A DNA stretch of 64,000 nucleotides, from positions 1-64,000 of the forward strand of contig JAPPOQ010000028.1 of the NCBI GenBank assembly GCA_028817895.1. The letters are read 5' to 3'. Of this stretch, positions 34,852 through 63,564 are shown piece by piece (the stretch's first letter is position 1; each line of letters opens with the position of its first letter). Source of the DNA: Ahrensia sp. GTDB lineage: Bacteria; Pseudomonadota; Alphaproteobacteria; Rhizobiales; Rhizobiaceae. Position numbers and translations under genes: made by a program. The notes below the pieces were generated by a model. It did no database searches and was not told where the DNA came from. It worked only from the letters and a program-made list of their open reading frames with translations.

Positions 34852-34983
34852 CTGCTATTTTGTCCAGTTCATATGCATCCAGTTTGGCACTTGCACCGGA
34901 TCGACATTCGCGCCGCGGCGTGATCAATTGGCAGGCTCGGAAATGGCCGAAACGCTGCCAGTTTGGACAGTCAGTATCGTTTG

Positions 34984-36030: not shown

Positions 36031-36806
36031 GTGTGTCCTACGTCTCGCATGGCACATCGGAAAAGGCGGTCATCTATCTGCACGGTGTTGGCAGCGGCAA
36101 GGAAGGCTGGATGGCGCAGCGCGATGCGACGGTCGAGGCCGGCTTCCGCTTTGTCGCGATCGACGCACCGGGCTTTGGCTCCACGCCGTTGCCAGATGCT
36201 GCGGGCTTTGGGTCACATGTTCAAAGCGTTCTCGATGTCATGCAACAGGAGGGCCTGGAGGAGGCCGTGCTATGCGGCCATTCCATGGGTGGCATGACGG
36301 CACAAGAGTTTTACGCCCAGCACCCGCAACGCGCGAGCGCACTCGTGCTTTCGGGAACAAGCCCGGCCTTTGGCAAAGCCAATGGAGACTTCCAAAAGGC
36401 TTTTCTGCGAGCCCGGTTCGAGCCCTTTGACCAGGGCATGAGCATGCCGGAATTTGCAAACGCTTTCAGTGCAGACTTGCTCGGCTCGGCGGCAAGCGAC
36501 GACGCATTGCGCCAAATCATCGAAGTTATGTCGCCGGTTTCCATTCCAGCCTATCGCAGGGCGGTGGAAACTCTGACGCATTTTGACCGGCGCGATAATC
36601 TGCCATCCATAAGCGTGCCTGTCCTGCTGATCGCGGGAGAAGAAGACGAGAACGCGCCCGCCAAGATGATGGAAAAGATGGCTTCCTACATTTCCAACGC
36701 GACTTATGTAGAATTGGAGAAGACGGGCCATATGGCGCCGGTGGAAAATGCTGACGCCTTCAACCAGAATCTGGGCGCATTTTTGAGCCGACTGGGCTTG
36801 ACGTGA
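36027..36806 (+). CDS. alpha/beta hydrolase (NicD/PcaD-like)
   Basis: A 259-residue alpha/beta-fold hydrolase with nucleophile S86 in GHSMGG, probable acid D207 in GEEDENAP and base H235 in TGHMAPVEN. The oxyanion-hole region is YLHGVGSGKEGW. In nicotinate catabolism NicD deformylates the product of NicX, and an ATGA overlap with the NicX-like gene supports a next-step role. Similarity also fits enol-lactonases such as PcaD. Cytoplasmic. Confidence 0.85.
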   Translation: MSVSYVSHGTSEKAVIYLHGVGSGKEGWMAQRDATVEAGFRFVAIDAPGFGSTPLPDAAGFGSHVQSVLDVMQQEGLEEAVLCGHSMGGMTAQEFYAQHPQRASALVLSGTSPAFGKANGDFQKAFLRARFEPFDQGMSMPEFANAFSADLLGSAASDDALRQIIEVMSPVSIPAYRRAVETLTHFDRRDNLPSISVPVLLIAGEEDENAPAKMMEKMASYISNATYVELEKTGHMAPVENADAFNQNLGAFLSRLGLT

Positions 36807-36817
36807 GGGGGTGATCC

Positions 36818-38041: not shown

Positions 38042-38050
38042 CTCAAGCAT

Positions 38051-39538: not shown

Positions 39539-39577
39539 GGCGCTTCGGCCCAAAAACTCGGGGTTGGGGAGGCCCGG

Positions 39578-41164: not shown

Positions 41165-41203
41165 CTGCGCTCAATGCGAATTGGCGATTGCGGATCAGCA
41201 TCA

Positions 41204-41221
41204 AGACATGACAAGATGTCT
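41204..41221. promoter_or_regulatory. inverted repeat upstream of TAXI receptor gene
   Basis: AGACAT-GACAAG-ATGTCT, with perfect 6-bp arms, lies 40 bp after the sulfatase stop and 100 bp before the TAXI receptor start. No T-run follows, so an operator is more likely than a terminator. It is unassigned. Confidence 0.3.
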
Positions 41222-41321
41222 GTAATCCGTTTGCGCTTTTGGAGGAGAGGCTTTCGGATAACACGTTGAGGCAAAACGAGCCAAAGCAAGAAAGGCCGTA
41301 TGGCCAATTGGGAGGACAAAT

Positions 41322-42386
41322 ATGAAATCATTGAAGAAACTGGCGGCTTTTGGGGCCGCAATGGGGCTTGCCGCATTCCTGTCGGCCAGCGCCAATGCCG
41401 CTGAAAACCTGACCGCCGAAACGGCGTCGCCGGGTGGCTCGATCCATCTGTCTTTGGCTCATCTGACCGAAATGGCCGGCAAGAAGGGCATCGCCAACAT
41501 TCAGCTGGCCGACGGGCAGACGCTCACAAATTCCGTGCAGAATGTGGCTGAGGGCAAGACCGACATTGCCGGCACGCCCTACATTTTGCCATTCCTGTTG
41601 GACAAGGGCCGTGGCCCCTACTCCAAACTCGGAGCGGAGAAGGGCGCCGAGCTCGCTTCCAATTTGCGCGCACTGTACCCTGTCACGCTCGGTATTTTTG
41701 CGCTCTACGCCTACGATTCGAACAACATTTCCGGATGGGACGGTCTTGAAGGCAAGACCATTCTGAACGGCCCGCCCCGCGGCGCTGCCGTGACCAATGC
41801 TCGCGCTGTGATCCAGCTTACGGCAGGACTGAAGGAAGGCGAGGGCTACAAGGGCACGCAGGTTAATTGGGGTCAGGCGACCAAGACCATCATGGATGGT
41901 TCCGTGGAAGCCGTTGTGCTGCCCGTTCTGTTTCCAGACAGCCGCATCACGCAGGCCGTCTCAGCAGGCAAGATGACAGTCTGGTCCATTCCCAAGGACA
42001 AGTGGGAAACCGAAGCGTTCCAGAAATATCTGCGAGCACCGGGTTCCGCACCGGTGGAAATCCCGGTTGCCGATGCGACCATGCCGGAAGGCGTGACGAT
42101 CGTTTCCGAGGATGACACCTTTCGCGGGCTGGCCACCATTGGCGGCGATATCGTCCACAAAGACATGCCCTTCGAGCTCGCCAAGGCATTGACCAAGGCT
42201 CATATCGACACGCTGGACGAGTTGAAGGCGAAAGCGCCCTTCGCAGCGCAGGCCGGTTACGGCATTGTCGACACGGTGCGCTCCGGCATGTGCGGACCAA
42301 ACCCGCTGAAGTATCACGCTGGTGCAGTCGCAGCCTGGGAAGAGGCCGGTTACACGATTGACGATTGCGCCAAGCCGGCGAGCTAG
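41322..42386 (+). CDS. TAXI-family TRAP solute receptor
   Basis: Periplasmic binding protein of 354 residues, TAXI type, which pairs with fused TRAP permeases. The signal peptide ends near residue 26 (MGLAAFLSASANAAE). Receptor features include LTAETASPGGSIHLSL, NISGWDGLEGKTILNGPPRG and VGWG-like NWGQATKTIMDGSVEAVVLP. A strong GGGAGG site precedes the ATG. A hairpin separates it from the permease gene. Confidence 0.9.
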   Translation: MKSLKKLAAFGAAMGLAAFLSASANAAENLTAETASPGGSIHLSLAHLTEMAGKKGIANIQLADGQTLTNSVQNVAEGKTDIAGTPYILPFLLDKGRGPYSKLGAEKGAELASNLRALYPVTLGIFALYAYDSNNISGWDGLEGKTILNGPPRGAAVTNARAVIQLTAGLKEGEGYKGTQVNWGQATKTIMDGSVEAVVLPVLFPDSRITQAVSAGKMTVWSIPKDKWETEAFQKYLRAPGSAPVEIPVADATMPEGVTIVSEDDTFRGLATIGGDIVHKDMPFELAKALTKAHIDTLDELKAKAPFAAQAGYGIVDTVRSGMCGPNPLKYHAGAVAAWEEAGYTIDDCAKPAS

Positions 42387-42412
42387 AAGCATCGCTTCGA
42401 CACGATCGCATA

Positions 42413-42446
42413 AAGGCGCCCGGTCACCCATCTGGCCGGGCGCTTT
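42413..42446 (+). terminator. hairpin between TAXI receptor and permease genes
   Basis: GCGCCCGG and CCGGGCGC pair perfectly over 8 bp around a 12-base loop, flanked by AA(G) and TTT that extend the stem. It lies 27 bp after the receptor stop. Such hairpins often make partial terminators or protect the receptor mRNA, giving more receptor than permease. Confidence 0.55.
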
Positions 42447-42481
42447 CACGTCGCATGTGACGACGAGAGGCATAACAACCA

Positions 42482-44848
42482 GTGTCTGACAGGCCGTCAA
42501 CAAACGAAAGCAAGCGCGACTTCGGGTTGACGCTCGTTTATTGGCTGGCGCTCGCGCTCGTCATCATCGGCCTGTTGAACTCCATGCCGGGAATCCCCGG
42601 TCTGGACGATGCAGCCGTTGCGCTGACCGGCTGGAAAGATCTGGTCATCCGAAAGTACCCGTATGAGTATTTTTACCCCCTTGCCTTCGCGCTGATGATG
42701 CTTGTCGTCGCGCTCAAGCATTCGCTGTGGCGCGATTATGCAGGGGCGTCTTCGGTAAAGCGAGGCGCGGGCGCGCTTCTTGATATCGCGCTCATCATTG
42801 CCGCTCTCGGCATCTCAGCGACCTACCTCATCGAGATCGAAGCGGTCTGCATCATCGATCAGATCACCGGCGAGCGGGCGCAGCTGATCGCAAAGAGCCT
42901 GGCCGAGGAGCGCGAATTTGCCGAGCTTTACGGCCTTCCCGTGCCTGACACCGTAGAAGACCCGCAATGCATCAACACGACGGGCGGATGGCTTGTCGCG
43001 ATTATGGGCGCGGCGGTGATCATCTTTCTTGCCTATAATGTGAAAGTGTGGGGCCTGCCGCTTGTGCTCGTCGCCATCGCCATCACCGCCTATACGATCA
43101 TCACCGTGCTGGTCTGGTATGTGCACGGCCCCGATGACATCAACAAATATCTGATGACCAAGCTTGGCGGCGAGCCGCGCCTGCTGTCCGACGGTCGGCC
43201 GCGCCTGCATGACGCGCTGATCAACAATTCGACCGGTTTGCTCGGCCGGTTCATGGACATCATCCTGAACACGGTTTTTCCCTATATCGTTTTGGGAGGC
43301 TTGTTCGGTGCGTCCGCAGGCGGGCGCTCACTCATCAAACTCGCCTTCTTGTGGACCCGAAAGCTGCGCGGCGGACCGGCCCATGCGGCAATCGTGTCGT
43401 CCGCCATGTTCGGCACAATCTCCGGCGGACCGGTGGTCAATGTCCTTTCAACAGGCGTGCTGACGATCCCCATGATGATCAAGCGGGGGTTCTCAAAAAC
43501 CTTTGCAGGCGGCATGGAGGCAGCGGCCTCTTCGGGCGGCTCCATCATGCCGCCGGTGATGGGCGTTGCGGCGTTCGTTTTGGCCGCACTCACGGCTGTG
43601 CCCTATCGAGAAGTGATCATCGCCGCCGCGATCCCGGCACTTGCCTATTTCCTGTGCCTGTTCCTGTCCGCCGTGTTCCAGTCGCGCAAGCAAGGGCTGG
43701 AAGCCATCGGGAAGGTGACTGACGACATGATGTTGTCGCAGGCCGACAAGCTCAATCTGATCATGATCTTCGGTCCGATCCTGCTGATTCTGATACTGCT
43801 TTTAACACCCAAGGAGGCTGTTGGCTGCGGAATCATAGGAACGTTGTTTGGCGTCCAGACGACCGTTGATGCCAGCGGCAGTTGCGCCGCGGGTGACCTG
43901 CCCTGGTTCTTTAAGCTGGTTCAGAATTCGGCTGGCGATGCGGGAAGCGCGGGCTGGTGGGCAGTGTTCCTGCTTTGCTTCCTGCTGTTTCTCGACAAGG
44001 ACATGCGCGCGCGCCCCAAAAAGTTGCTCGATGCCTTTGCTGAATCCGGCATTTTGATTTCGACCCTCTATCTGATGTTTTTGGCCGTCTCGATCATCGA
44101 CTTCTGCCTGAATTTCACCGGGCTTTCCGATTTCATCGCGCTGGATGTGTTGGGATGGTTGCGGGCGCTCGACCTTGGCGGGGCTGGATCTGGCCTGTTC
44201 CAGTTCATGGCCCTGCTCACAACGATGGCACTGGCAGTATTTTTGGGAATGGGTATGCCGGCTGTTCCCGCCTACATCAATGTCGCGCTGCTGATGGGGC
44301 CGTTGTTGACGGGACTGGGACTGTCGCTCTTCACGGCACATATGTTCATCTTTTACTTCGCCGTCGCCTCCGCCATTACGCCGCCTGTTGCGATTGCCGC
44401 CTTTGCGGCTGCCTCGATCACCAAGGCCGACCCAATGGCAACGGGCTTTTCCGCCGTACGATCGGGTATCGTCATGTTTGTCATCCCCTTCGTCTTTGCG
44501 ATGTATCCCGAGATTCTTCTCATCCCAGCCGCCGTACTCGACCCGACATCGCTTCCATCAGCGGCGAAATATTTGCCGGGCTATGACGGAACGCTTGATG
44601 TTGGAGCGCTCATTTGGCTGCTGGTTCGATTGGTTCTGGCCCTTTACCTGCTGGCCAGCGGATTGGCGCGCTTTGACCGCAACAAGCTTGATCTTTGGGA
44701 ATGGGTCCTGCGGCTGGCGCTGGCGGCGCTGGTCCTGTCCGGCGATCCGCTCATCCATGGTGCTGCGCTGCTGGCGTCAATTGCGCTGCTTGCAGTTCAT
44801 ACCATGCGTGCGCGCAGCCAGTCACAAGTCGCGACGCCGCCCGCATGA
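42482..44848 (+). CDS. TRAP transporter fused permease (4TM/12TM)
   Basis: A 788-residue membrane protein joining DctQ- and DctM-like parts, as in TAXI systems. The N-terminal third holds several TM segments. The DctM core has FGTISGGPVVNVLSTGVLTI and SSGGSIMPPVMGVAAF. Later GMGMPAVPAYINVALLMGP and SAITPPVAIAAFAAASI form the second half, and extra hydrophobic segments end the protein. The GTG or ATG-like start at 42482 lacks a strong ribosome site. Its stop abuts that of the convergent GH1 gene. Confidence 0.91.
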   Translation: MSDRPSTNESKRDFGLTLVYWLALALVIIGLLNSMPGIPGLDDAAVALTGWKDLVIRKYPYEYFYPLAFALMMLVVALKHSLWRDYAGASSVKRGAGALLDIALIIAALGISATYLIEIEAVCIIDQITGERAQLIAKSLAEEREFAELYGLPVPDTVEDPQCINTTGGWLVAIMGAAVIIFLAYNVKVWGLPLVLVAIAITAYTIITVLVWYVHGPDDINKYLMTKLGGEPRLLSDGRPRLHDALINNSTGLLGRFMDIILNTVFPYIVLGGLFGASAGGRSLIKLAFLWTRKLRGGPAHAAIVSSAMFGTISGGPVVNVLSTGVLTIPMMIKRGFSKTFAGGMEAAASSGGSIMPPVMGVAAFVLAALTAVPYREVIIAAAIPALAYFLCLFLSAVFQSRKQGLEAIGKVTDDMMLSQADKLNLIMIFGPILLILILLLTPKEAVGCGIIGTLFGVQTTVDASGSCAAGDLPWFFKLVQNSAGDAGSAGWWAVFLLCFLLFLDKDMRARPKKLLDAFAESGILISTLYLMFLAVSIIDFCLNFTGLSDFIALDVLGWLRALDLGGAGSGLFQFMALLTTMALAVFLGMGMPAVPAYINVALLMGPLLTGLGLSLFTAHMFIFYFAVASAITPPVAIAAFAAASITKADPMATGFSAVRSGIVMFVIPFVFAMYPEILLIPAAVLDPTSLPSAAKYLPGYDGTLDVGALIWLLVRLVLALYLLASGLARFDRNKLDLWEWVLRLALAALVLSGDPLIHGAALLASIALLAVHTMRARSQSQVATPPA

Positions 44849-53012: not shown

Positions 53013-54104
53013 ATGACCGCCGTTACCTTGCGCAACATCAAGAAGGCCTATGGCCCTGTTGAAGTGATTCACGGCGTTGACCTGGACATTCAGGATGGCG
53101 AGTTCGTCGTTTTCGTCGGCCCGTCAGGCTGTGGCAAATCCACACTTTTGCGCATGATCGCCGGGTTGGAGAGCATCACCGGCGGCGACATGCATATTGG
53201 CGGCGATCTCGTCAATGACGTTCCGCCATCCCAACGCGGCATCGCTATGGTGTTCCAGTCCTACGCGCTCTACCCGCACATGACGGTGTATGACAATATG
53301 GCATTTGGCATGCGCATCGCCAAAGCCTCACGTTCCGAGATCGAAGAGCGCCTTCAGGCGGCAGCCGAAATCTTGCAACTCACACCCTATCTTGATCGGT
53401 TGCCGAAAGCCCTGTCGGGTGGTCAGAGGCAACGCGTTGCGATCGGTCGCGCCATCTGCCGCGACCCCAAAGTCTTTCTGTTTGATGAGCCGCTTTCCAA
53501 CCTGGATGCCGCGTTACGCGTCGCCACCCGCATTGAAATCGCCAAGCTGAAAGAGAGCCTCCCGGACTCCACGATGATTTATGTGACCCATGATCAGGTG
53601 GAAGCCATGACGCTGGCTGACCGCATCGTCGTCTTGTCTGCCGGGCGCATCGAGCAGGTCGGTTCACCCATCGAACTCTATGAGCGACCAGCCAATCTTT
53701 TCGTGGCACAGTTCATCGGATCGCCGGCCATGAATGTCGTGCCCGCGACCATTACAAAGGCCGGCAAGTCCACAAAGGTGAGCATTCAGGGGCAGAGCGG
53801 TGAAATTTCTGTGCCCATCGCAACGCCAGAGCAGATGACCGGAAAATCAGTGAGCCTCGGTTTCCGGCCCGAAGACATGCATGTCGATACCGGGAAGAAG
53901 ACCCATGTCACCGGAGAAATCACTCTAGTGGAATCGCTGGGGGAAGTGACCAATCTCTATGTTGACGTGGGCGATGTTGCAGAGCCGATCGTTGCAAAGG
54001 TGGCGGGCACCCACGACTACAAGCGGCACTCGAAAATTGGCATCAGCGCAGATACGACCAAGATGCATTTGTTCGACGAAGAAGGTCGCTCATTGGCCGT
54101 GTGA
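53013..54104 (+). CDS. aglK: alpha-glucoside ABC ATPase AglK
   Basis: MalK/UgpC-type ATPase of 363 residues. Walker A GPSGCGKST, the signature LSGGQRQRVAIGRA and Walker B LFDEPLSNLDA are all present, followed by the TOBE regulatory domain (SLGFRPEDMHV). It drives the AglE/F/G complex. GGGGAGG lies before the ATG. Its 3' end overlaps the convergent MBL-fold gene by 15 bp. Confidence 0.95.
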   Translation: MTAVTLRNIKKAYGPVEVIHGVDLDIQDGEFVVFVGPSGCGKSTLLRMIAGLESITGGDMHIGGDLVNDVPPSQRGIAMVFQSYALYPHMTVYDNMAFGMRIAKASRSEIEERLQAAAEILQLTPYLDRLPKALSGGQRQRVAIGRAICRDPKVFLFDEPLSNLDAALRVATRIEIAKLKESLPDSTMIYVTHDQVEAMTLADRIVVLSAGRIEQVGSPIELYERPANLFVAQFIGSPAMNVVPATITKAGKSTKVSIQGQSGEISVPIATPEQMTGKSVSLGFRPEDMHVDTGKKTHVTGEITLVESLGEVTNLYVDVGDVAEPIVAKVAGTHDYKRHSKIGISADTTKMHLFDEEGRSLAV

Positions 54105-54962
54105 TTGGGGCGCGGCGAGATCAATCACCATCAGATCCTCAGCAATATCGGCCTTGCCTGAAAAGTGCGCGCGCATGTGATAGAGCATCTTGTCGCGTGA
54201 CGTCGCGTCATCCATCGCGGTGCGCAGATGAGTGAGCAGCAGCTGTTTGACTCGGCAACGCCCGGCAAGCTGTGCAATCTCCACCGCATCCGGCGACATG
54301 GACCGAATGAAGGGATGGGCTTCGTCGCCCACCATGCGGTAGCACCAATGGATCAACAGATCGGCACCGCGCGCCAACGTCTCCACGTCATCGCAAAGGG
54401 CCGTGTCTCCGGTGTAGACAAATGACGCATCGGCTGTGTCCAGGCGAAACGCCATGCAGGTGAGTTGCGGTTGCGCGTGTGGTGCGTTGCAGCTTGAAAG
54501 GCACCACAGGCCAGCATCAATGCGATGACCCGGTTCAATCTCCACGACATGCGGTTCAGGCCAAGGCCGAGGCAACACGCCACCACGCTCTTCCCAGACT
54601 TCCTGGCTGCCAGGGTTTTCCGTTCGCGCGATCAAATCCGTTGCAAACACGCCATGGCGTCCAAACAGCTTTTCAGTGATCTCTGCGATTGGGGGCGGGC
54701 CGAACACTTTGACGGGCGCACCGCCTTCATCCCAGGCTGCATGCACGAGCCGGGCATAATCCATCATGTGGTCGGAATGCAGATGTGTGAAAAAAATATG
54801 GGTGATGTCTGACGGTCTGCGACCAGACTGGATCAGGCGGTCAAAGACTCCGCCGCCGCAATCAAGCAAGACCCTGTCTTCGCCAATTTCCACCAGATAG
54901 CCGGAGGATGCGCGCCGCACGCTTGGCTCGGGACAACCTGTTCCCAGACAGATGATCTTCAT
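54090..54962 (-). CDS. metallo-beta-lactamase-fold hydrolase
   Basis: A 290-residue MBL-fold enzyme with the RNase Z/arylsulfatase-like layout. The metal motif THLHSDH supplies H60, H62, D64 and H65. Later ligands are in VYTGDTALCDD and LLLTHL. It may hydrolyse an ester, lactone or sulfate ester. The start overlaps the sulfatase stop by ATGA, so both act together and probably sequentially. Cytoplasmic. Confidence 0.86.
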   Translation of the reverse strand: MKIICLGTGCPEPSVRRASSGYLVEIGEDRVLLDCGGGVFDRLIQSGRRPSDITHIFFTHLHSDHMMDYARLVHAAWDEGGAPVKVFGPPPIAEITEKLFGRHGVFATDLIARTENPGSQEVWEERGGVLPRPWPEPHVVEIEPGHRIDAGLWCLSSCNAPHAQPQLTCMAFRLDTADASFVYTGDTALCDDVETLARGADLLIHWCYRMVGDEAHPFIRSMSPDAVEIAQLAGRCRVKQLLLTHLRTAMDDATSRDKMLYHMRAHFSGKADIAEDLMVIDLAAPQSHGQ

Positions 54963-56416
54963 GATGCAGGCAGTTCCGGTGGCGGTGTTGCAGCGGGTGC
55001 GCCCAGCTTGAGCGCGGCTTCGCGCCCGCCATAGGCTTCCACCATGGCCGCCTGATCGCCATGCGCCATGGCGTCAACACTATCAGGATCGCAAATGGCG
55101 CGAAGCGCCTCGTCGAGTTCTTCAAGCTTGCCGGCACAACCCGGTTCCCCGGCCAGGTTTTGGAGTTCCTGCAGATCATGCGCCAGATCGAACAATTCGG
55201 GTTCGAAGCCGACATAGTGGATGTATTTCCAATCGCCCTTACGGATCATGAAGGCTCCGCTGACCGCACCCGCTGCATGATATTCGCTGAAGACAACCCG
55301 TTGGTCGTCTTCGCTTCGTGACGCGATGTCCGGCAATGGCATCCCCGGTCCATTCTCCGGCAGTCTGGTTCCGAAATGATCGACAATCGTTGCGGAAAGA
55401 TCGAGCAGGCTGACGGGCGTGTGGCATTCACCAACATCGATGTCAGGTCCCGCCATGATCATTGGAACCGCCACGGCCTCTTCATACATGTTGGATTTGC
55501 CCCACAGACCACGCGCGCCAACATTGTCGCCATGGTCGGATGTGTAGACCACAGTTGTGTTTTCGCTCAGCCCGGTTTCTTCCAGCGCAGTCAGGATGCG
55601 CCCGACATTGTGGTCAAGCCAGCTGCACAAGCCGTAATAGGATGCCATCGCAGCGAGACGCTCGTCAGCGTCGCGAAACTGATCTTCAGACGGTGCAATC
55701 GCATTCTGGCGCTCCACCCAGGGATGAAGCCCATGGCCTTGTGAGGGGTGAAGCTTTGCCGGAGGTAACCCCTCATGCGGATAGAGCTTGTAAAACTCAT
55801 GCGGAACGACAAGCGGAAAATGCGGGGCGACAAGGCCGACATACAGACACCAAGGTCGGCTTTCCTTTCCACTGCGCTGCCTGAACCAGTCGCAACTTCG
55901 TTCAACCACAGCCGAATCATAATGCGTATAGGTGCTGTGGCCTGGACCGATATACTCGCCCAACATGCGACGCGGCATTTCGACGCGCTCGTCCTCTTTG
56001 CGCATGGAAGCCCACACCATCCCGACGCCATCGGCAACATGCATCGGTATGTGTTCAATGTCGAAGCCAGCCGGGTCCTCGTCGCTGCGATAGTGCAGCT
56101 TGCCAATGCTTTCCACACCAATACCGATTTGCTGCAAAGCGTGACCCCAACCTTTCGGCTCCCCCCGATATGGCATGGCATTGTCCCATAGCCTGTTGCA
56201 GTGGACATACTGGCCGGAGGCAAAAGAGGCCCGCGCCGGTACGCAGATCGGGCTTGGTGTGTAGGCTCGTGTGAAGCGGGTTCCCCGCGCCGCCAGCGCA
56301 TCGATATTGGGGGTCTGGATAGAGATTTCGTTGCGCCATTCGCACGCGCAGCCCAACGCCCGCGACTGGTGTTCATCCGACATGATCACCAGCAGATTGG
56401 TTTTTTGCTCCACCAT
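54959..56416 (-). CDS. sulfatase (CxPAR type)
   Basis: A type I sulfatase of 485 residues. The formylglycine motif is CVPARAS with C58. Metal residues are in VIMSDEHQ near the N-terminus and YTSDHGDNVG later. No signal peptide, so the substrate is probably imported first. The ATG directly abuts the stop of the MarR gene, and the gene end overlaps the MBL-fold gene. The substrate is unknown, and choline-sulfatase-like function is only one option. Confidence 0.9.
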   Translation of the reverse strand: MVEQKTNLLVIMSDEHQSRALGCACEWRNEISIQTPNIDALAARGTRFTRAYTPSPICVPARASFASGQYVHCNRLWDNAMPYRGEPKGWGHALQQIGIGVESIGKLHYRSDEDPAGFDIEHIPMHVADGVGMVWASMRKEDERVEMPRRMLGEYIGPGHSTYTHYDSAVVERSCDWFRQRSGKESRPWCLYVGLVAPHFPLVVPHEFYKLYPHEGLPPAKLHPSQGHGLHPWVERQNAIAPSEDQFRDADERLAAMASYYGLCSWLDHNVGRILTALEETGLSENTTVVYTSDHGDNVGARGLWGKSNMYEEAVAVPMIMAGPDIDVGECHTPVSLLDLSATIVDHFGTRLPENGPGMPLPDIASRSEDDQRVVFSEYHAAGAVSGAFMIRKGDWKYIHYVGFEPELFDLAHDLQELQNLAGEPGCAGKLEELDEALRAICDPDSVDAMAHGDQAAMVEAYGGREAALKLGAPAATPPPELPAS

Positions 56417-56875
56417 TCAGAAATTGATGCGTTCTGAGTTTGTTTGCAGCTTCTCCAAGGCTGAGAAGACGCTCTTTATCTCATCATCCGTCAGATTGTG
56501 CAGGAGGTAGTCCTGCCGTTTGCGCATGATCACGATGATACGCTCGTAGATAGCTTTGCCCTTTTGGGTGAGCGACAACAAAATGCGGCGTTGGTCTTTC
56601 GGGTCCGTTTCACCTTCCACCAGACCAAGCTCGATGACCTGCTTCAGACCCCGGCTGAACAGACCCTTGTCCATATTGGCGCGTTCGATGATAGCGCCTG
56701 ACGATATCTCCGGTCCAAAAGCGTGCACCATGAAGACGATGCGCCATTGAACCAAGCTCAAATCGGCATGCTTCTTCAAGATTGCTGCTGCCTGTGCGTT
56801 CAACTTTGGATTCAGAACAGAAATTCGGTATGTGACGAAACGCGAAAGTTCTTGCGCCCCTGATACTTGTGTCAT
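56417..56875 (-). CDS. MarR-family transcriptional regulator
   Basis: A 152-residue winged-helix regulator. The recognition region is GAIIERANMDKGLFSRGLKQ and the wing is EGETDPKDQRRILLSLT, both typical of MarR. The ATG at 56875 is taken; the frame open to 57217 would run through the intergenic region and into tctC. It is the first gene of the MarR-sulfatase-MBL unit and diverges from tctC, so it likely represses both until a substrate or intermediate binds. Confidence 0.9.
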   Translation of the reverse strand: MTQVSGAQELSRFVTYRISVLNPKLNAQAAAILKKHADLSLVQWRIVFMVHAFGPEISSGAIIERANMDKGLFSRGLKQVIELGLVEGETDPKDQRRILLSLTQKGKAIYERIIVIMRKRQDYLLHNLTDDEIKSVFSALEKLQTNSERINF

Positions 56876-56931
56876 GTCTTTCTCGCCCGGATTTGGCAAA
56901 GTCCGCCCCGGATAGCATGCGTCCAATGCGC

Positions 56932-56943
56932 TTGACCGGTCAA
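56932..56943. promoter_or_regulatory. putative MarR operator
   Basis: TTGACCGGTCAA is a perfect 12-bp palindrome in the 118-bp gap between the MarR gene and tctC. Its first six bases resemble a -35 hexamer for tctC, so binding would block the promoter. Assignment to this MarR protein is inferred from position. Confidence 0.55.
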
Positions 56944-56993
56944 CCAAGCTGTGAAACTTTAAACTCACAATACATCGATTGGGAGTGTTATCG

Positions 56994-57944
56994 ATGCGCA
57001 AACTTGTACTGACGGCCTTGGCTCTGGGGGGCATGGTCGCAGCAAATATCAGTTCAGCCTTCGCCGAATGGGCGCCGCCTGGACCCATAAAACTGACAAT
57101 TGCATTTCGAGCCGGCGGTGGAGCAGACACCCAGGCCCGTTTGATCGCCGAGCATCTTGAAGCCGAGAAGGGCTGGAAGATCATACCGGAAAACGTGACC
57201 GGCAAGGGCGGCATCAACGCCCTGAAGGCGCTGAAGGATCAACCCAATGACGGGACCGCGATCGCGATCGTTGTAACGGAGTCGCTGGGCTACAATCTGG
57301 TGGCCGCGAAAAATTCCGGCTTGTCGGTAAGCGACTTCACACCGCTTACAACGACCGCCGGATTCCAGATGGGCGTCGTTGCGAAAACCGAAAAGGGCTG
57401 GAAAACCTTTTCCGATGTGATCGAGGCTGCAAAGGGCGGCCAGGCCATCCGGTTCGGCGTGATGAGCCCGAAGCTTGACGATCTGGCCTATATGCTGGGC
57501 AAGGCCCATGGGGTCGAGTTCAACACGGTCATGCTGCGCGGCGGCAAGGGCGTGATGAATGGTTTGAATGCCGGAGACATCGATGTCGGCTGGGGAGCGG
57601 GAATTCAAAACGCCGCGGTTCAGTCCGGTGACATGGTCAACCTTGCATCCGGGCTGTCCACCAAACTGAGCATCTCGCCAGACGCTCCGACGATGGAAGA
57701 GTTGGGTGTGAAATTCAACGCCGACGGCTATTTCGTGTTTGTCGCACCCGCTGGATTGCCAAACGAAGCCCGCACGGCTCTTTCCGAAGCGCTTTCATCC
57801 GTTGCTGCCGATGAGGCCACCAAGGCCGGAGGCATGATCAAGAAAGCCTTTGGCGGCGCGCAGATCATCAAGGGCGACGAGCTTGACGCCATCGTCAGCG
57901 CAGCAGCTGACGCATCAGCCGAATTGATGAATGCTGCCGAATAG
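56994..57944 (+). CDS. tctC: tripartite tricarboxylate transporter receptor (TctC)
   Basis: Periplasmic receptor of 316 residues. The signal peptide is about residues 1-25 (LALGGMVAANISSAFAE). Bug/TctC-fold features are IAFRAGGGADTQARLI and VTGKGGINALKAL. Bug receptors bind carboxylates through water-bridged loops. GGGAG lies 8 bp before the ATG at 56994; an earlier in-frame start at 56979 is weaker. Confidence 0.92.
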   Translation: MRKLVLTALALGGMVAANISSAFAEWAPPGPIKLTIAFRAGGGADTQARLIAEHLEAEKGWKIIPENVTGKGGINALKALKDQPNDGTAIAIVVTESLGYNLVAAKNSGLSVSDFTPLTTTAGFQMGVVAKTEKGWKTFSDVIEAAKGGQAIRFGVMSPKLDDLAYMLGKAHGVEFNTVMLRGGKGVMNGLNAGDIDVGWGAGIQNAAVQSGDMVNLASGLSTKLSISPDAPTMEELGVKFNADGYFVFVAPAGLPNEARTALSEALSSVAADEATKAGGMIKKAFGGAQIIKGDELDAIVSAAADASAELMNAAE

Positions 57945-57987
57945 ATCCGGGGCGACGGATCAGCGGCAGATTGGAGGGCAACGGGTC

Positions 57988-58035
57988 ATGTATCCGTTGT
58001 CCTTTCTCGTTCCAGCACCGACCGGCTCGCAATGA
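57988..58035 (+). CDS. possible 15-residue leader peptide before tctB
   Basis: A short frame (MYPLSFLVPAPTGSQ) begins 10 bp after a GGAGG site and its TGA overlaps the tctB ATG as ATGA. Its start codon lies in the loop of a hairpin with arms CAACGG (57979-57984) and CCGTTG (57994-57999). It may couple translation into tctB, whose own ATG lacks a ribosome site. Expression is not demonstrated. Confidence 0.3.
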   Translation: MYPLSFLVPAPTGSQ

Positions 58036-58601
58036 AGCAGGAAACACTGCCGACCACGCACACTGATTTGATTGTCGCAATCGTCGTTTGCCTGGTGGCA
58101 GCTCTCATCGGCCTGGCCTGGATTCCGCTCGATGTCGAGACTGGAATATTCGAGAAGGTCCGCAGAAAGTTCGAGATCGGGGATGCCTTCGCCCCCGCCA
58201 TGGCCACGGCTTTGCTGGCGACAGGTGGTGTGCTGTTGCTGGTGGAAGCATTTCGCAATCCCGGCTCAACGCGCATCAACCGAAAGAGCGCTGCCTTTAT
58301 GGCCATACTCGTCGCTCTGTTTGCAGCCAGTTTCACCGTCATGCTGTTTGCCGGATCGCTGGCAATTTCTTTGTTCGGCAATGCAGGCGATGAGTACAGA
58401 CTGCTGCGAGACACACCGCCGTGGAAATATCTGGGATTCTTGCTGGGCGGCACGATCATGGTCAGTGCCCTGATCGGTCTTGTCGAGCGGCGCTTGACGA
58501 TCTTGGGCGTCCTCACCGGGATCGGCGCGAGCCTGATCATCATTTTCATCTACGACCTGCCATTCGATGATCTGCTCCTGCCACCCAATGGAGACTACTG
58601 A
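58032..58601 (+). CDS. tctB: tripartite tricarboxylate transporter TctB subunit
   Basis: Small membrane subunit of 189 residues with four TM segments (IVAIVVCLVAALIGLAW; AMATALLATGGVLLLV; AFMAILVALFAASF; ILGVLTGIGASLIIIFI). It has the usual TctB layout and size. The stop overlaps the tctA start by 1 bp (TGATG). Confidence 0.88.
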   Translation: MKQETLPTTHTDLIVAIVVCLVAALIGLAWIPLDVETGIFEKVRRKFEIGDAFAPAMATALLATGGVLLLVEAFRNPGSTRINRKSAAFMAILVALFAASFTVMLFAGSLAISLFGNAGDEYRLLRDTPPWKYLGFLLGGTIMVSALIGLVERRLTILGVLTGIGASLIIIFIYDLPFDDLLLPPNGDY

Positions 58602-60190
58602 TGGAAGTCTCAACCTATTTGTGGCTGGGCATTGAGGCCGTCTTTGCCGGCCCCACCGCTTTTTCCATTCTTGGCGTGTCGGTCTCCATCGCCCTGACCA
58701 TGGTGTTTGCCGGCTTCCTTCTTGGCATCGTGGTTGGCAGCACACCGGGTCTTGCCGGTCCGATGGCGATGGCGATCTCTCTGCCCATTCTCATCTCGAT
58801 CTTTGGGTATTCGCCGGATGCGCTCTTGCCGGTGTTCGGCTTCCTCATCGGCATCATGAAAGGGGCGACCGTTGGCGGCGCTGTGCCCGCCATCCTGTTC
58901 AATACGCCGGGCACGCCAGACGCTTTCATGACCACGCTGGATGGCCATCCCATGGCGCGAAAGGGTGAGGCGGCGAGGGCTTTGCGTGTTGCGCATGTTT
59001 CCTCCGCCTCTGGCGACACATTTTCCGATGTAGCGTTGATTGTCTGCGCTCCCTTTCTGGCAATCCTTGTGGAAGCCTATCTGGACCTTCCCGAAAAGAC
59101 GGCTCTGCTGATCCTCTCCATGGCGTTTATCGCAGCGGTGGTGGGTGGCTCTCCGGCCAAGGGGCTGATTTCAGCTGCGCTCGGCCTGCTCGCAGCCTCT
59201 GTCGGAACCGGTGAAGACTTCACCCCGCGATTGACCTTTGGCTTTGACAGCCTTGCTTCGGGATTTCCCATCGTCACCGCAGTGCTTGGTGTTCTTATAT
59301 TGGGGGAAGTTTTCAAGGCCATCGAGGAAATGTGGCACGAACGCGGTCGAGACGCGGCAACAACCAATGAGCAGATACAAAGACCGGGACGGCTCGACCG
59401 TGAAACGCTGCGCCGCATATTTCCCTATGTGGTGCGCTCCTCCTTAATTGGAACGGCGATCGGAGCGTTGCCCGGCATCGGATCAACACTCGCCGCAACG
59501 CTTGGCTACACGTCCGGCAAGCTGCTGCACGCACGGCGCAAGGCCGACGACGAACCGGCCTTCGGCGACGGAATCCCCGAAGGTATTGCCGCGACGGAGG
59601 CCGCAAACTCTTCCGTATCAGGTGCCAATCTGATTCCGGTTTTGTCGCTCGGAGTGCCCGGAAACGCCGCCGCGGTGTTTCTCATTCTGGCTGCCGATTC
59701 GATCGGCGGTTTCAACCCGGGACCTTCCGTCTTTCGCTTCACGACAGACAGCATCAACCCTGAACTGGTGATCGCCTTCGGCCTGTTCACGATGATGATG
59801 GTGGCCAATCTGGTGAACTGGACGATTGGAGGTGTCTTCATGCGCTCCATGGGCGCGATGACGCGCATTCCCAAACACCGTCTGCTCCCCGTCATTCTAC
59901 TTTTGACGCTCACGGCGATCTACATTCAGGAAACCAAGATGGCCGCGCTCTGGTTTGCTGTCGGTTTCGGATTGCTTGGCTATGTGATGCGGCGGCTCGC
60001 CATCTCACCCCTCCCCTTCATTATCGCTTTCATTCTTGGCGGGCGTCTGGAAGAGACGGCACGGCAGGCCTTTTCGGCCACGGGCGGCGACCCGTGGTTT
60101 CTGTTCAGTTCCGCGACATCGATTGCACTGCTGGTCATGACTGTCGCGGTGGTCGCCGTGCTGTCAGCCAGGGGAAGAGCTTTAGTATGA
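58601..60190 (+). CDS. tctA: tripartite tricarboxylate transporter TctA permease
   Basis: Large permease of 529 residues with about 12 TM segments. TctA signatures are FLLGIVVGSTPGLAGPMAMA and the repeated GTAIGALPGIGSTLAATLGY, the two GxxxGxxPGxG-type loops. Together with TctC and TctB it forms a complete secondary carboxylate importer. It overlaps the following hydrolase by ATGA. Confidence 0.94.
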   Translation: MEVSTYLWLGIEAVFAGPTAFSILGVSVSIALTMVFAGFLLGIVVGSTPGLAGPMAMAISLPILISIFGYSPDALLPVFGFLIGIMKGATVGGAVPAILFNTPGTPDAFMTTLDGHPMARKGEAARALRVAHVSSASGDTFSDVALIVCAPFLAILVEAYLDLPEKTALLILSMAFIAAVVGGSPAKGLISAALGLLAASVGTGEDFTPRLTFGFDSLASGFPIVTAVLGVLILGEVFKAIEEMWHERGRDAATTNEQIQRPGRLDRETLRRIFPYVVRSSLIGTAIGALPGIGSTLAATLGYTSGKLLHARRKADDEPAFGDGIPEGIAATEAANSSVSGANLIPVLSLGVPGNAAAVFLILAADSIGGFNPGPSVFRFTTDSINPELVIAFGLFTMMMVANLVNWTIGGVFMRSMGAMTRIPKHRLLPVILLLTLTAIYIQETKMAALWFAVGFGLLGYVMRRLAISPLPFIIAFILGGRLEETARQAFSATGGDPWFLFSSATSIALLVMTVAVVAVLSARGRALV

Positions 60191-60888
60191 CCTTTGTCCT
60201 GGTTCACGGTGGCTGGCATGGGGGCTGGTGTTGGAAGGAGGTTGCAAAGCGGCTTCGCGCCGAAGGCCATGAGGTCTTCACACCGACACTCACAGGTCTT
60301 GGGGAGCGTCGTCATTTGATCAAGGCCGTTGAGGGGCCACAAACGCATGTTGAAGACATTTGCAATGTGTTGCTGTTCGAAGAGCTCAGTGATGTGGTGC
60401 TGGTCGGTCATTCCTATGGCGGCATGATCATCACCGGCGTGGCCTCGCAGATGCCGGACCGCATCCGCACGCTCGTTTACGTCGATGCCTTCGTCCCGGA
60501 TCGCGACCAACTGCCAGCCAGCAAAATGTCAACGCCGGAACGCGCAGCGCAGATGACAGCCGCTATTCAAGACGATGACACAATAACACCGAATGGGTTC
60601 GAGCGCTGGACGGACAATTCCGAAACCTTGGCCTGGCTGAAGACGATGTGCACCCCGCATCCGGCCAGTTGTTTCGACAAGGGTGTGCGGTTGACGGGCG
60701 CTGAGAAGCAAGTTGGCCAGCGCATGTTCATCAAGGCAGGGCGCAATCCTCTCTCGCCCTTTGATCAGTTCCACGAACGCTATCGCGATGACCCACAATG
60801 GCGGGTGCACAGCGTCGATGCGCTTCACGACATCATGCTCGATGCACCTGACGAGCTGACCCGACTGCTGCTGGAGACGACACGATGA
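60187..60888 (+). CDS. alpha/beta hydrolase (SABP2/EstC-like esterase)
   Basis: A 233-residue esterase-type hydrolase. The N-terminus FVLVHGGWHGGWCWKE holds the oxyanion-hole loop, the nucleophile S76 is in LVGHSYGGM, and a late histidine is in HSVDALHDIML. The fold resembles salicylate-methyl-esterase and pyrethroid-esterase relatives. The ATG at 60187 overlaps the tctA stop; the longer frame from 60094 lies inside tctA. It is coupled to the sulfatase gene by another ATGA. Confidence 0.87.
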   Translation: MTFVLVHGGWHGGWCWKEVAKRLRAEGHEVFTPTLTGLGERRHLIKAVEGPQTHVEDICNVLLFEELSDVVLVGHSYGGMIITGVASQMPDRIRTLVYVDAFVPDRDQLPASKMSTPERAAQMTAAIQDDDTITPNGFERWTDNSETLAWLKTMCTPHPASCFDKGVRLTGAEKQVGQRMFIKAGRNPLSPFDQFHERYRDDPQWRVHSVDALHDIMLDAPDELTRLLLETTR

Positions 60889-62411
60889 AACGGCCCAACA
60901 TTCTGCTGATCTCTGCCGATCAACAACGAGCAGACTGTTTCGGCTTCGAGGGTCGCGCCATTCAGACGCCGCATCTCGACCAACTTGCGGCCAACGGCAC
61001 CCATTTTGCCGCCTGCATCACCCCCTGCGTGGTCTGCCAACCGGCGCGAGCGTCCATTCTGACCGGTCAGCTTTGTCGTACCAATGGCGTGCATGACAAT
61101 GGCATCGATCTGGATCCAGCAATCGGCGAGAAGGGCTTTGCGGGAGCGTTGGCGGCAAGTGGCTACGACACGGCTTTTTTCGGCAAGGCCCATTTTTCGA
61201 CCTACCACACATTCGAGCCGACCGGCACGCCTGAATGCATCGCCTCATCAGCCAGTTATGATGAAGCCTGGAACGGGCCCTATATGGGGTTCGATCATGT
61301 TGAGATGATGCTTGTCGGCCACAATTGGTTTCTGCCGGAAAAACCTCCACGCGGGCAGCACTTTGAACGCTGGTACTATGCCGATGGCCGGGGCGATGAG
61401 AAAAATGCGCTTTACCGTGCTAATGCGGGCGACACGAAACAGGCCGCGCAGACCTGGCATTCCAAGCTGCCAACGGCCTGGCATAACTCAACCTGGACTG
61501 CGGATCGAGCCATCGACTGGATCAAGTCCCGCTCACACGAAACGCCCTTTTGCGCCTGGGTGAGTTTTCCTGACCCGCATCACCCATTTGACTGCCCGGA
61601 ACCCTGGTCCCGACTGCATGATCCGGCGAAAGTCGACTTGCCTTCGAACCGCAAACGAAGCTTTGAGGGGCGTCCCTGGTGGCATGAAGCTGTGCTGACG
61701 TCGGAACCGACTGGCAGCGCGCAAAGTGCCGACATTCGCAAATCTTACAGCCGCATCGTCGAGCAAAGCGATGAGCAGTTGCGGGAAATTATCGCCAACA
61801 CTTATGGGCAGATCGGGCTGATAGACCATCAGGTCGGACGTTTGATGATTGCTCTGCAAGAGGCTGGCATCACGGAGGACACGTTGGTCGTCTACATCTC
61901 CGATCACGGCGACTGGCTTGGCGACCATGGACTGATCCTCAAAGGACCGATGCACTATGAAGGCGTGTTGCGCGTCCCAATGATCTGGTCGGGGCCGGGT
62001 GTGCCGAAGGGCAAACGCGTCGAAGACCCGGTCTCCACGCTCGATCTCGCAGCGACCTTCTGCGACTACGCGCACGCCACTGCCTTGCTCGACCAGCATG
62101 GAGAGAGCCTGCGCCCACTCATCGAAACGAATGAGGCACACCGAGACATTGCGCGCAATGAATGGGAACTGCTTCCAACTCGTGCCGGCGTCGCCCTCAG
62201 CCTGCGCACGGTGCGCAGCAAGACCCACAAACTGACTTACGATCTTCAAAGCGGTGCTGGTGAGATGTACGATCTCGTTGCTGACCCTCACGAGCTGACC
62301 AACATCTTCGACCATCCCGCAGCCGCCGAGATACGCGAAACGCTCATGCAGGCAATCCATGCGCGACCCGATGATATGCGGCCGGTTCAGGAGCAAGTCG
62401 GCATGGCGTGA
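60885..62411 (+). CDS. sulfatase (CxPAR type)
   Basis: A type I sulfatase of 508 residues. Metal residues are D12 and Q13 (ISADQQRADC). The formylglycine motif is CQPARASILTGQ with C51, and late metal residues are in YISDHGDWLGDHG. No signal peptide. Final gene of the tctCBA-hydrolase unit, starting inside the stop codon of the esterase. A formylglycine-generating enzyme is needed for activity and is not in the window. Confidence 0.91.
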   Translation: MKRPNILLISADQQRADCFGFEGRAIQTPHLDQLAANGTHFAACITPCVVCQPARASILTGQLCRTNGVHDNGIDLDPAIGEKGFAGALAASGYDTAFFGKAHFSTYHTFEPTGTPECIASSASYDEAWNGPYMGFDHVEMMLVGHNWFLPEKPPRGQHFERWYYADGRGDEKNALYRANAGDTKQAAQTWHSKLPTAWHNSTWTADRAIDWIKSRSHETPFCAWVSFPDPHHPFDCPEPWSRLHDPAKVDLPSNRKRSFEGRPWWHEAVLTSEPTGSAQSADIRKSYSRIVEQSDEQLREIIANTYGQIGLIDHQVGRLMIALQEAGITEDTLVVYISDHGDWLGDHGLILKGPMHYEGVLRVPMIWSGPGVPKGKRVEDPVSTLDLAATFCDYAHATALLDQHGESLRPLIETNEAHRDIARNEWELLPTRAGVALSLRTVRSKTHKLTYDLQSGAGEMYDLVADPHELTNIFDHPAAAEIRETLMQAIHARPDDMRPVQEQVGMA

Positions 62412-62545
62412 CGCGAAGCACGGGTGGGCTTTCGGATTGCCAGTCGGGAAGCGTCGGCATCTACGCGTTCTGACACAAAACTGCAATATGGGCGTCGTTA
62501 GTGCGGCATTGCCAACGATACTCTTGCCAACCACGTGACCGGACA

Positions 62546-63211
62546 ATGTCATCCAGCTTCTCACAGCGTCTTGCGGCAGAAGGGGTAGGGACAGCGTTTC
62601 TGCTCGCCACGGTGGTAGGCTCAGGCATCATGGCGGAGGCGCTGGCCGGGGGAAACGTTGCTATCGCCCTGCTTGGCAACACAATTCCCACCGGCGCCAT
62701 TCTGGTGGTTCTGATCACCATGTTGGGCCCGATTTCCGGCGCGCATTTCAACCCGGCGGTGACGCTTGTCTTCGCTCTGCGCCGCGAAATCGATGTGAAA
62801 GCGTCGCTTGGTTATGTGGCTGTTCAGATCATCGGCGGGCTGCTGGGAGTGCTGACTGCACATCTGATGTTCGGTCTCGACATGATGCAGTTCTCGCAAA
62901 AAATACGCAGCGGCGGGTCGCAATGGTTTGCCGAGGGCGTCGCGACGTTCGGGCTTGTCATGACCATATTGCTGACATTGAAAGCGCGCCAACACGCCGT
63001 CGCCATGGCTGTCGGCTTGTACATCACCGCCGCCTATTGGTTTACGGCGTCCACATCCTTTGCCAATCCGGCTGTCACCATTGCGCGCGGCTTTTCTGAT
63101 ACGTTTGCGGGCATCCGCCCGGTGGATGTCGCATCTTTCATTGCTGCGCAACTCGTAGCCGCCGTGATCGCGCTGTGGTTTTGCAATTGGCTCTTGTCGC
63201 GAAAGGACTGA
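62546..63211 (+). CDS. aqpS: MIP-family channel, AqpS-like
   Basis: Membrane channel of 221 residues with six hydrophobic segments. The two pore motifs are HFNPAVTL and FANPAVTI with a following arginine. In S. meliloti AqpS lets arsenite leave the cell after ArsC reduces arsenate. Pairing with arsC here supports that role, although glycerol or water transport is possible. The ATG at 62546 has no strong ribosome site. The stop overlaps an in-frame ATG of arsC. Confidence 0.87.
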   Translation: MSSSFSQRLAAEGVGTAFLLATVVGSGIMAEALAGGNVAIALLGNTIPTGAILVVLITMLGPISGAHFNPAVTLVFALRREIDVKASLGYVAVQIIGGLLGVLTAHLMFGLDMMQFSQKIRSGGSQWFAEGVATFGLVMTILLTLKARQHAVAMAVGLYITAAYWFTASTSFANPAVTIARGFSDTFAGIRPVDVASFIAAQLVAAVIALWFCNWLLSRKD

Positions 63212-63216
63212 TGGCC

Positions 63217-63564
63217 ATGACGATTGTCATTCATCACAACGAGGAATGCGGCACCTCGCGCAACGCGCTGGCGATGATCCGGGAAGCAGGCATTGAGCCC
63301 ATCATCATCGACTATCTCAAGACGGGCTGGACAGTCCCACAGTTGCAGGCCCTGTTTGCTGCAGCAGATCTGACCCCGCGCCAGGCACTGCGGGAGACAA
63401 AATCCCCGGCGAAGGACTTGGGTTTGCTGGCGGAGGGCATCGCCGATGATACCCTGTTGCAGGCCATGATTGAGCGCCCGGTTCTGGTCAATCGTCCGAT
63501 TGTTTGCTCTCCTAAAGGCGTGCGGCTTTGCCGACCTTCCGAAACCGTTCGCGAGCTGTTGTAG
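63217..63564 (+). CDS. arsC: glutaredoxin-type arsenate reductase
   Basis: A 115-residue ArsC of the R773 type. The catalytic Cys11 is in ECGTSRNALAM, and arginines that stabilise the oxyanion lie in TPRQALR, IERPV and VNRPI. AAGGA is 9 bp before the ATG at 63217; an ATG at 63211 is possible but too close. It reduces arsenate to arsenite with glutathione and glutaredoxin. Neither arsR nor arsH is seen. Confidence 0.92.
   Translation: MTIVIHHNEECGTSRNALAMIREAGIEPIIIDYLKTGWTVPQLQALFAAADLTPRQALRETKSPAKDLGLLAEGIADDTLLQAMIERPVLVNRPIVCSPKGVRLCRPSETVRELL

Follow-up and report, generated by a model that had tools for sequence, protein, structure and literature searches.

A conserved MarR-linked cassette of transporter and sulfatase genes in Ahrensia, a candidate route for sulfated carboxylates

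The DNA analyzed here, referred to throughout as the window, is a 64-kb stretch (64,000 nucleotides) of Ahrensia sp. (assembly GCA_028817895.1, contig JAPPOQ010000028.1, positions 1 to 64,000). It carries two divergent operons in which the genes for a MarR-family regulator, two sulfatases (A and B) and a metallo-beta-lactamase (MBL)-fold hydrolase accompany those of a tripartite tricarboxylate transporter (TTT), TctCBA. An earlier note on this DNA counted these genes, together with an alpha/beta-hydrolase ("esterase") gene, as an eight-gene locus and proposed that they form a route dedicated to a sulfated carboxylate or ester. Sequence comparison indicates that seven of the eight genes constitute a conserved divergent unit, from which the alpha/beta-hydrolase gene is excluded. 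On balance, and with a good deal of reservation, we favor the view that this cassette is a horizontally moving catabolic unit that imports and desulfates a sulfated carboxylate, most likely yielding a 2-hydroxy acid.

Results

Gene organization

Gene families were called with Pfam, using its curated cut-offs, and with NCBIfam. On the minus strand lie the genes for the MarR-family regulator (56417-56875; PF12802, 40 bits, cut-off 27), which has orthologues at the same place in relatives, for sulfatase A (54959-56416; PF00884, 131 bits, cut-off 25) and for the MBL-fold hydrolase (54090-54962; PF12706, 59 bits, cut-off 27). The plus strand carries tctC, encoding the periplasmic solute-binding protein of the transporter (56994-57944; PF03401, 57.8 bits, cut-off 27, the match starting at residue 48), tctB for the putative small membrane subunit (58032-58601), tctA for the large membrane subunit (58601-60190; PF01970, 333 bits, cut-off 28.9), the alpha/beta-hydrolase gene, which starts with the ATG at 60187 (60187-60888; PF12697, 78 bits, cut-off 26.3), and the sulfatase B gene (60885-62411; PF00884, 136 bits). 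All of the products, TctB apart, pass the curated Pfam cut-offs. This confirms the divergent eight-gene locus of the earlier note, including its overlapping or abutting junctions: the MBL and sulfatase A genes overlap by 4 bp, the TGA of the MarR gene directly abuts the sulfatase A ATG, and overlaps of 1, 4 and 4 bp join tctB to tctA, tctA to the alpha/beta-hydrolase gene, and the latter to the sulfatase B gene. The exceptions are an 87-bp gap between tctC and tctB and the 118-bp gap between the divergent MarR and tctC genes.

Conservation and spread

Relatives of the locus (designated by L numbers) were counted around each sulfatase gene. Sulfatase A loci were those with an identity of at least 47% (n = 32 with the window), leaving out L127-L134 and L175 (42-46%), L177 (two pieces, 45 and 49%) and the short duplicates L145-L152; sulfatase B loci were those with at least 61% (n = 19 with the window), leaving out L170 and L179 (47%), L177 (32%) and the short duplicates L153-L157. 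The seven genes recur, their divergent order unchanged, at 8 further loci (L120, L121, L135, L166, L167, L168, L169 and L187), which represent 4 genera, five of the loci (L121, L166-L169) coming from a single genus. The earlier note had made its proposal depend on the gene set being conserved together elsewhere, and for seven of its eight genes this is what these loci display. Shorter forms are more widely distributed. The MBL gene is missing from L139 and L171 (nearly identical and taken as one lineage) and from L160, and the sulfatase B gene from L122; L123, L138, L140, L141 and L159 are reduced to sulfatase A, MarR and TctCBA. TctCBA and sulfatase B occur without sulfatase A in L172 and L173 (LysR gene adjoining) and in L178 (MarR gene adjoining). 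In S. mediterraneus (L142), the genes for sulfatase A, TctCBA, a stress protein and sulfatase B all lie on the same strand.

In a draw of 247 genomes from the family, with the window's genome included in every count, TctC orthologues (E <= 1e-40) were present in 5 genomes, in all five adjoining a sulfatase A orthologue, so that the grouping of these genes exceeds chance. Sulfatase B (1e-90) was found in 3 genomes, the MBL protein (1e-40) in 5, the esterase (1e-40) in 11 and sulfatase A (1e-90) in 11, at 15 places. Cassette-type loci accounted for 5/5 of the places of TctC, 3/3 of those of sulfatase B, 4/5 of those of the MBL protein and 1/11 of those of the esterase, namely the window's own. 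In a larger draw (380 genomes), TctC appeared at 12 places in 10 genomes; two of these were distant transporters and 10 were cassettes, one of them (L188) without a sulfatase. Sulfatase A (1e-150) was present in 9 of the 367 genomes of a class-level sample, and the cassette in 2 of the 7 listed genomes of the window's own genus (the window's and one other). Where the host is named, the TctCBA-containing forms reside on plasmids, from Sulfitobacter, Paracoccus, Tritonibacter, Alisedimentitalea and Rhodobacteraceae M382. From this pattern of distribution we infer a mobile catabolic unit that moves horizontally.

A palindrome between the divergent operons

The interval between the MarR gene and tctC holds a conserved palindrome, TTGACnnGTCAA. 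Among 19 loci with the divergent gene pair, the best site was an exact match in 8, had no more than 1 mismatch in 15 and no more than 2 in all 19, counts that have to be read with the knowledge that several of the loci are closely related and that the palindrome was first spotted in the same regions in which it was later counted. The corresponding frequencies (0, <=1 and <=2 mismatches) were 0, 0.35% and 4.8% in 3,726 equal-length control windows from the same loci, and 0, 0.45% and 7.1% in 3,800 shuffles. The window's copy, TTGACCGGTCAA at 56932-56943, is the only exact TTGACNNGTCAA within the window, where 0.12 would be expected. Many relatives carry two overlapping or neighboring copies. 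The natural reading is that the palindrome is a MarR operator, predicted to control both arms of the cassette. A scan of 56800-62700 for sigma-70 promoters found none, so that an overlap between the palindrome and a -35 box was seen by eye only.

The two sulfatases

Both sulfatases are of the S1 (formylglycine) type and carry the C-x-P-x-R signature, as CVPAR in sulfatase A (Cys58) and as CQPAR in sulfatase B (Cys51). The signature cysteine and arginine and the catalytic residues of sulfatase A are invariant in 21 of 21 sequences, and Cys51 and Arg55 of sulfatase B in 15 of 15, the window included in each case. Since the Pfam matches begin at residue 7 (A) and residue 4 (B), there is no room for a signal peptide; desulfation is therefore expected to occur inside the cell, after import, both enzymes being probably cytoplasmic. 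The closest solved relative of sulfatase B is the exo-2S-iota-carrageenan S1 sulfatase 6pt4 (154 bits), other S1 enzymes being near. Sulfatases of the 6pt4 type are secreted polysaccharide enzymes, whereas sulfatase B cannot accommodate a signal peptide and its cassette holds no carbohydrate gene.

For sulfatase A, the closest solved relative is the choline sulfatase BetC of Sinorhizobium meliloti (6fny, 197 bits), with which it shares its catalytic residues. In BetC, Glu386 is reported to recognize the quaternary ammonium of choline (PMC5870055). The equivalent position in sulfatase A is A382, occupied by Ala, Val, Ile or Met, and never by an acidic residue, in 21 of 21 sequences. The score against the BetC family model TIGR03417 was 252 bits, short of the cut-off of 433, and BetC is associated with a different transporter. 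Assignment of sulfatase A as a choline sulfatase was rejected on the grounds of the family score and the substitution of Glu386.

The window contains a second sulfatase operon (34963-44848), with genes for a 355-amino-acid protein, an alpha/beta-hydrolase, an acyl-CoA-dehydrogenase-like protein, a CoA ligase, a sulfatase and TRAP components. This third Cys-type sulfatase (39578-41164) is PehA-like, has a CGPSR motif and is accompanied by a TAXI-TRAP receptor and a fused TRAP permease. In L120, L142 and L178, a relative of the third sulfatase gene lies no more than about 2 kb from that of sulfatase B.

The transporter

A TctC-family binding protein and a TctA-family permease, both above the Pfam cut-offs, identify the transporter as a TTT. 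TctB (189 amino acids) gave no Pfam match and was assigned from its size and its position between tctC and tctA; it is 34-47% identical to the proteins at the same place in relatives, one of which is annotated as TctB family. The solved structures nearest to TctC are BugD, terephthalate-binding proteins and other members of the TctC family, all of them weak matches (46.4 bits or less).

One genome of the genus to which the window belongs has a further transporter locus (L189, 7707-14252), with genes for a LysR regulator, a distant TctC (36%), TctA, a GlcD-type FAD oxidase and an enzyme resembling taurine dioxygenase (292 bits, cut-off 313). Here again, TTT import stands alongside a 2-hydroxyacid-type oxidase and an enzyme that possibly removes sulfur.

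Oxidase genes beside the relatives

At 5 of the 19 sulfatase B loci (L139, L171, L172, L173 and L178), the sulfatase gene is directly followed, on the same strand and at a spacing of 3-12 bp, by a gene for an LldD-type FMN alpha-hydroxyacid oxidase. Three of the L139, L171, L172 and L173 genes were scanned and pass the cut-off of NCBIfam NF008398 (L-lactate dehydrogenase subfamily); the L178 protein stays below it (262 versus 376), yet belongs to PF01070. A GlcD-type FAD oxidase gene directly follows the sulfatase A gene at 2 of the 32 loci, L138 (4-bp overlap) and L140 (38 bp), and lies within about 5 kb of it in L136 (on the other strand), L137 and L144 and at about 6 kb in L163. The best match of the GlcD-type proteins, that of L135 included, is TIGR00387, below the cut-off; the four that were scanned (L135, L137, L138 and L144) belong to PF01565/PF02913. 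The oxidases derive from more than one lineage, the LldD-type protein of L178 being 33% identical to the rest and the GlcD-type proteins of L137 and L144 28-34%. Among these matches, no same-strand neighbors in the opposite combination (sulfatase A with LldD type, or sulfatase B with GlcD type) were seen. On plasmid unnamed3 of Sulfitobacter sp. SK012 both arms lie side by side, each with its own TctCBA: TctABC/MarR-sulfatase A-GlcD type, and MarR/TctCBA-stress protein-sulfatase B-alpha-hydroxyacid oxidase-third sulfatase. In 80 loci fetched with the esterase and used for comparison, the LldD profile matched once (317 bits) and the GlcD profile 4 times (all below 125 bits), a comparison biased by the origin of the profiles, which derive from the very cassette loci in which the oxidases were counted. 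The recurrence of these oxidases suggests that a 2-hydroxy acid is the most likely product of desulfation. Sulfated uronates, which the earlier note had put forward as possible substrates, received no support; the rival to a 2-hydroxy acid is a sulfated aromatic, considered below.

The alpha/beta-hydrolase and the MBL-fold protein

The solved structures nearest to the alpha/beta-hydrolase are 6tj2, plant hydroxynitrile lyases and SABP2 (methylesterases). Among 91 loci with the esterase or a relative, tctA was seen at one, the window's own, although 10 of the other 90 loci span only about 1.5 kb on each side. Conversely, no esterase match lies inside the cassette of any relative: the sole match in the cassette-related loci is a 33% relative within the homogentisate cluster of L142, and the interval between tctA and the sulfatase B gene is either empty or occupied by a universal stress protein gene (L121, L169, L142 and L178). 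L187, a full copy from the window's genus, has no alpha/beta-hydrolase gene, and in genome G004, where both are present, the esterase relative lies about 70 kb from the cassette. In the Chelativorans loci L041, L049 and L050, a gene for a distant S1 sulfatase (30-31% identical to sulfatase B) is found just upstream of the esterase relative, without TctCBA; a link between sulfatase and esterase thus exists elsewhere without this transporter. Since the esterase was accompanied by no tctA match at the 90 other loci and lay outside the cassettes of the relatives, it was rejected as a core gene and is best seen as a local addition to this locus. Its inclusion in the set by the earlier note does not hold beyond the window, and the Chelativorans pairs count the other way. 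The wider proposal of a dedicated route survives in part: the importer, the two sulfatases, the single MarR and the conservation of seven genes speak for it, while the esterase falls outside the core.

The MBL-fold protein carries the HxHxDH motif as HLHSDH, with the His, His, Asp and His residues invariant in 11 sequences (window included), and has orthologues of 54-58% identity in 10 other cassettes, including L188, which has no sulfatases. In a single-sequence search of solved chains, 8gyg ("Arysulfatase") came first with 65.4 bits, almost tied with 1zkp (64.9 bits). The S4 arylsulfatase AtsA is described (PMC5066984) as an MBL-fold enzyme with the HxHxDH motif from a clade near RNase Z. 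The protein of the window shares the fold and the motif with AtsA of Pseudoalteromonas carrageenovora, a likeness that concerns described features. A profile search ranked the arylsulfatase 8gyg fifth, below other MBL proteins. Sequence-wise, the protein appears to belong to the ElaC/AtsA-like region of the superfamily; within the cassette it is an accessory component, retained in one branch, and could be an S4-type (AtsA-kind) sulfatase or a lactonase.

Other genes in the window

An ABC ATPase gene (53013-54104) is convergent to the MBL gene, with a 15-bp overlap. Downstream of sulfatase B, an aquaporin-family gene (62540-63211) overlaps an arsC gene (63208-63564), whose product scores just above the NCBIfam cut-off (109.9 versus 106.05); the two resemble an aquaporin-ArsC arsenic pair. 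These genes around the cassette were judged to be unrelated to it. Elsewhere, at 21411-24638, the window encodes a 1075-amino-acid protein with SAM, adenylate/guanylate cyclase and AAA ATPase domains.

Discussion

What the sequence itself shows is the gene content, its conservation, the palindrome and the active sites; repression, stereochemistry, chemistry, cellular location and the class of substrate are deductions. The sequence of events that we envisage is as follows. MarR would sit on TTGACCGGTCAA between the divergent operons and repress both, until released by an inducer, either the substrate or its desulfated product. A sulfooxy-carboxylate, with its two charges, would be captured in the periplasm by TctC and brought in unaltered through TctBA. 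Once it is in the cytoplasm, its sulfate ester would be hydrolyzed by sulfatases A and B, by means of a formylglycine made from Cys58 and Cys51, respectively. The hydroxy acid set free, most likely a 2-hydroxycarboxylate, would be oxidized to the 2-oxo acid by flavin oxidases, which are encoded within the operon in some relatives and would have to be encoded elsewhere in the case of the window. The two sulfatases plausibly serve different enantiomers, sulfatase A the (R) form, in keeping with GlcD-type oxidases, and sulfatase B the (S) form, in keeping with those of LldD type. The MBL protein and the local alpha/beta-hydrolase may serve as accessory hydrolases that widen the range of substrates.

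A number of observations weigh against this scheme, besides the circular element in the palindrome and oxidase counts pointed out above. The TctCBA transporter accompanies sulfatase A at 19 of 32 loci and is absent from 13 of the 32. L188 combines TctCBA, MarR and the MBL gene with neither sulfatase. In L187, the tctC match has an in-frame stop, so this copy may be broken, and a metallophosphoesterase gene lies behind sulfatase B. In L122, the slot of sulfatase B is taken by a ComA-like gene (13222-14034; phosphosulfolactate synthase family, below the NCBIfam cut-off) that overlaps tctA by 4 bp. No match to the LldD or GlcD profile was obtained in the 64-kb window, where a PF01565 FAD-binding protein without PF02913 is encoded 33 kb away from the cassette (19720-21387). 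An oxidase gene of this kind is found near just one of the 8 other full copies, L135, and belongs to another operon there, since it is convergent to sulfatase B. Maturation of the sulfatases is also unexplained, because the window's own genome (G000; assembly 99.85% complete, 46 contigs) gave 0 matches to the formylglycine-generating enzyme (FGE; PF03781) and 0 to the anaerobic sulfatase-maturing enzyme (anSME; TIGR03942), while containing 8 sulfatase-family genes (9 matches), several with the Cys signature. Genes annotated as FGE family occur in the fetched stretch of 5 relatives; the one scanned against NCBIfam, from L172, matched only the GldK and EgtB models, below cut-off, and these genes are to be regarded as putative FGEs only. 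Finally, genes of aromatic catabolism adjoin L142 (homogentisate), L188 (salicylyl-CoA 5-hydroxylase) and L161, L163 and L165 (flavin hydroxylase).

This last observation bears on an alternative that is distinctly less probable than the scheme set out above but deserves serious attention, namely a sulfated aromatic carboxylate as the substrate (sulfated hydroxybenzoate, hydroxyphenylacetate or hydroxyphenyl-lactate being examples), from which the enzymes, acting as arylsulfatases, unmask a phenol for ring cleavage. In S. mediterraneus the homogentisate gene cluster lies upstream of sulfatase A. The flavin hydroxylase gene of L163 adjoins sulfatase A, its product being nearest to 3-hydroxybenzoate 6-monooxygenase (287 bits, cut-off 459), and other members of the hydroxylase family are encoded in L161 and L165. 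The salicylyl-CoA 5-hydroxylase of L188 is above its cut-off, Rieske oxygenase genes are found in L135, L136 and L161, and TctC is distantly related to terephthalate-binding proteins. However, the aromatic genes of L161, L163, L165 and L188 are convergent to the cassette and thus not in its operon, and L161, L163 and L165 share one genus and count once; their hydroxylase was the only aromatic family present in at least 3 loci when 24 loci and the window were clustered (with L187 and L188 left out). The extra genes that truly lie within the operon at several loci encode 2-hydroxyacid oxidases. L188 itself deserves mention for its arrangement: between 6778 and 12551, the genes for a stress protein, TctABC, MarR and the MBL protein lie beside a kynureninase-domain gene and a benzoate-CoA-ligase-like gene (just below cut-off).

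If the product is a 2-hydroxy acid, the occurrence of two sulfatases admits a tentative extension, which we regard as rather doubtful. Enzymes of the LldD type use L-2-hydroxy acids as substrates, those of the GlcD type D-2-hydroxy acids and glycolate. Because of these opposite preferences, the cassette and its relatives might constitute a pathway with two stereo-complementary arms for chiral 2-sulfooxycarboxylates, for instance the (R) and (S) forms of lactate sulfate, with sulfatase A and a GlcD-type oxidase serving one enantiomer and sulfatase B and an LldD-type oxidase the other, under one TctCBA and one MarR.

That the cassette serves general sulfur scavenging, a low-specificity uptake and desulfation for sulfate rather than carbon, appears improbable. 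Scavenging of small organosulfates is known in bacteria, and universal stress protein genes are linked to several copies. Against this, the marine relatives presumably live amid excess sulfate, MarR is a regulator of the ligand type, has a conserved palindrome to itself and is not a known regulator of sulfur starvation, and 2-hydroxyacid oxidases are linked. Finally, it is very improbable that an ordinary choline-sulfate (betC-type) or tricarboxylate locus has been misread: 6fny is the nearest solved structure to sulfatase A, one orthologue is annotated betC, and Rieske oxygenase genes (L135, L136) and a sarcosine-oxidase-like gene (L135, below cut-offs), of types that can belong to betaine demethylation, occur nearby in other operons, but sulfatase A fails both the family score and the Glu386 comparison, and the transporter is of the carboxylate type.

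Another point of comparison is the sulfolactate importer SlcHFG. Sulfolactate is a sulfonate, with a C-S bond, and the SlcHFG locus, unlike the cassette, is not known to include sulfatases. SlcHFG is reported as a TTT importer for sulfolactate (PMC5812351); the loci of Roseovarius nubinhibens and Chromohalobacter salexigens would resemble the one proposed here in the import, by a TTT, of a three-carbon 2-hydroxy acid that bears a sulfur group, and differ in that the tctB homologue is downstream of tctA (PMC5812351), while in the window it is upstream (tctC-tctB-tctA). Going by its title, a 2010 paper of Denger and Cook, cited in the same account, ascribes a racemase activity to two dehydrogenases, which points to opposite stereospecificities. 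The earlier note knew of no named system with the present gene set. In agreement with this, the papers listed by searches of open-licence PubMed Central included no description of the set, nor of a dedicated uptake-and-desulfation route for sulfate esters of small carboxylates; the families of the parts are known, and their combination was not found described there.

The pool of organic sulfate esters formed by small carboxylic acids has been poorly tracked. Small hydroxy-acid organosulfates have reportedly been measured in aerosols. A compact, mobile and presumably MarR-controlled cassette with one transporter, two sulfatases and a conserved palindrome offers a concrete handle for naming the substrate. 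Should the two-arm pathway prove true, it would be, to our knowledge, the first dedicated biological sink for small hydroxy-acid organosulfates. If import of a sulfated carboxylate is correctly assigned to this cassette, the large TctC family would gain sulfated carboxylates among its possible ligands.

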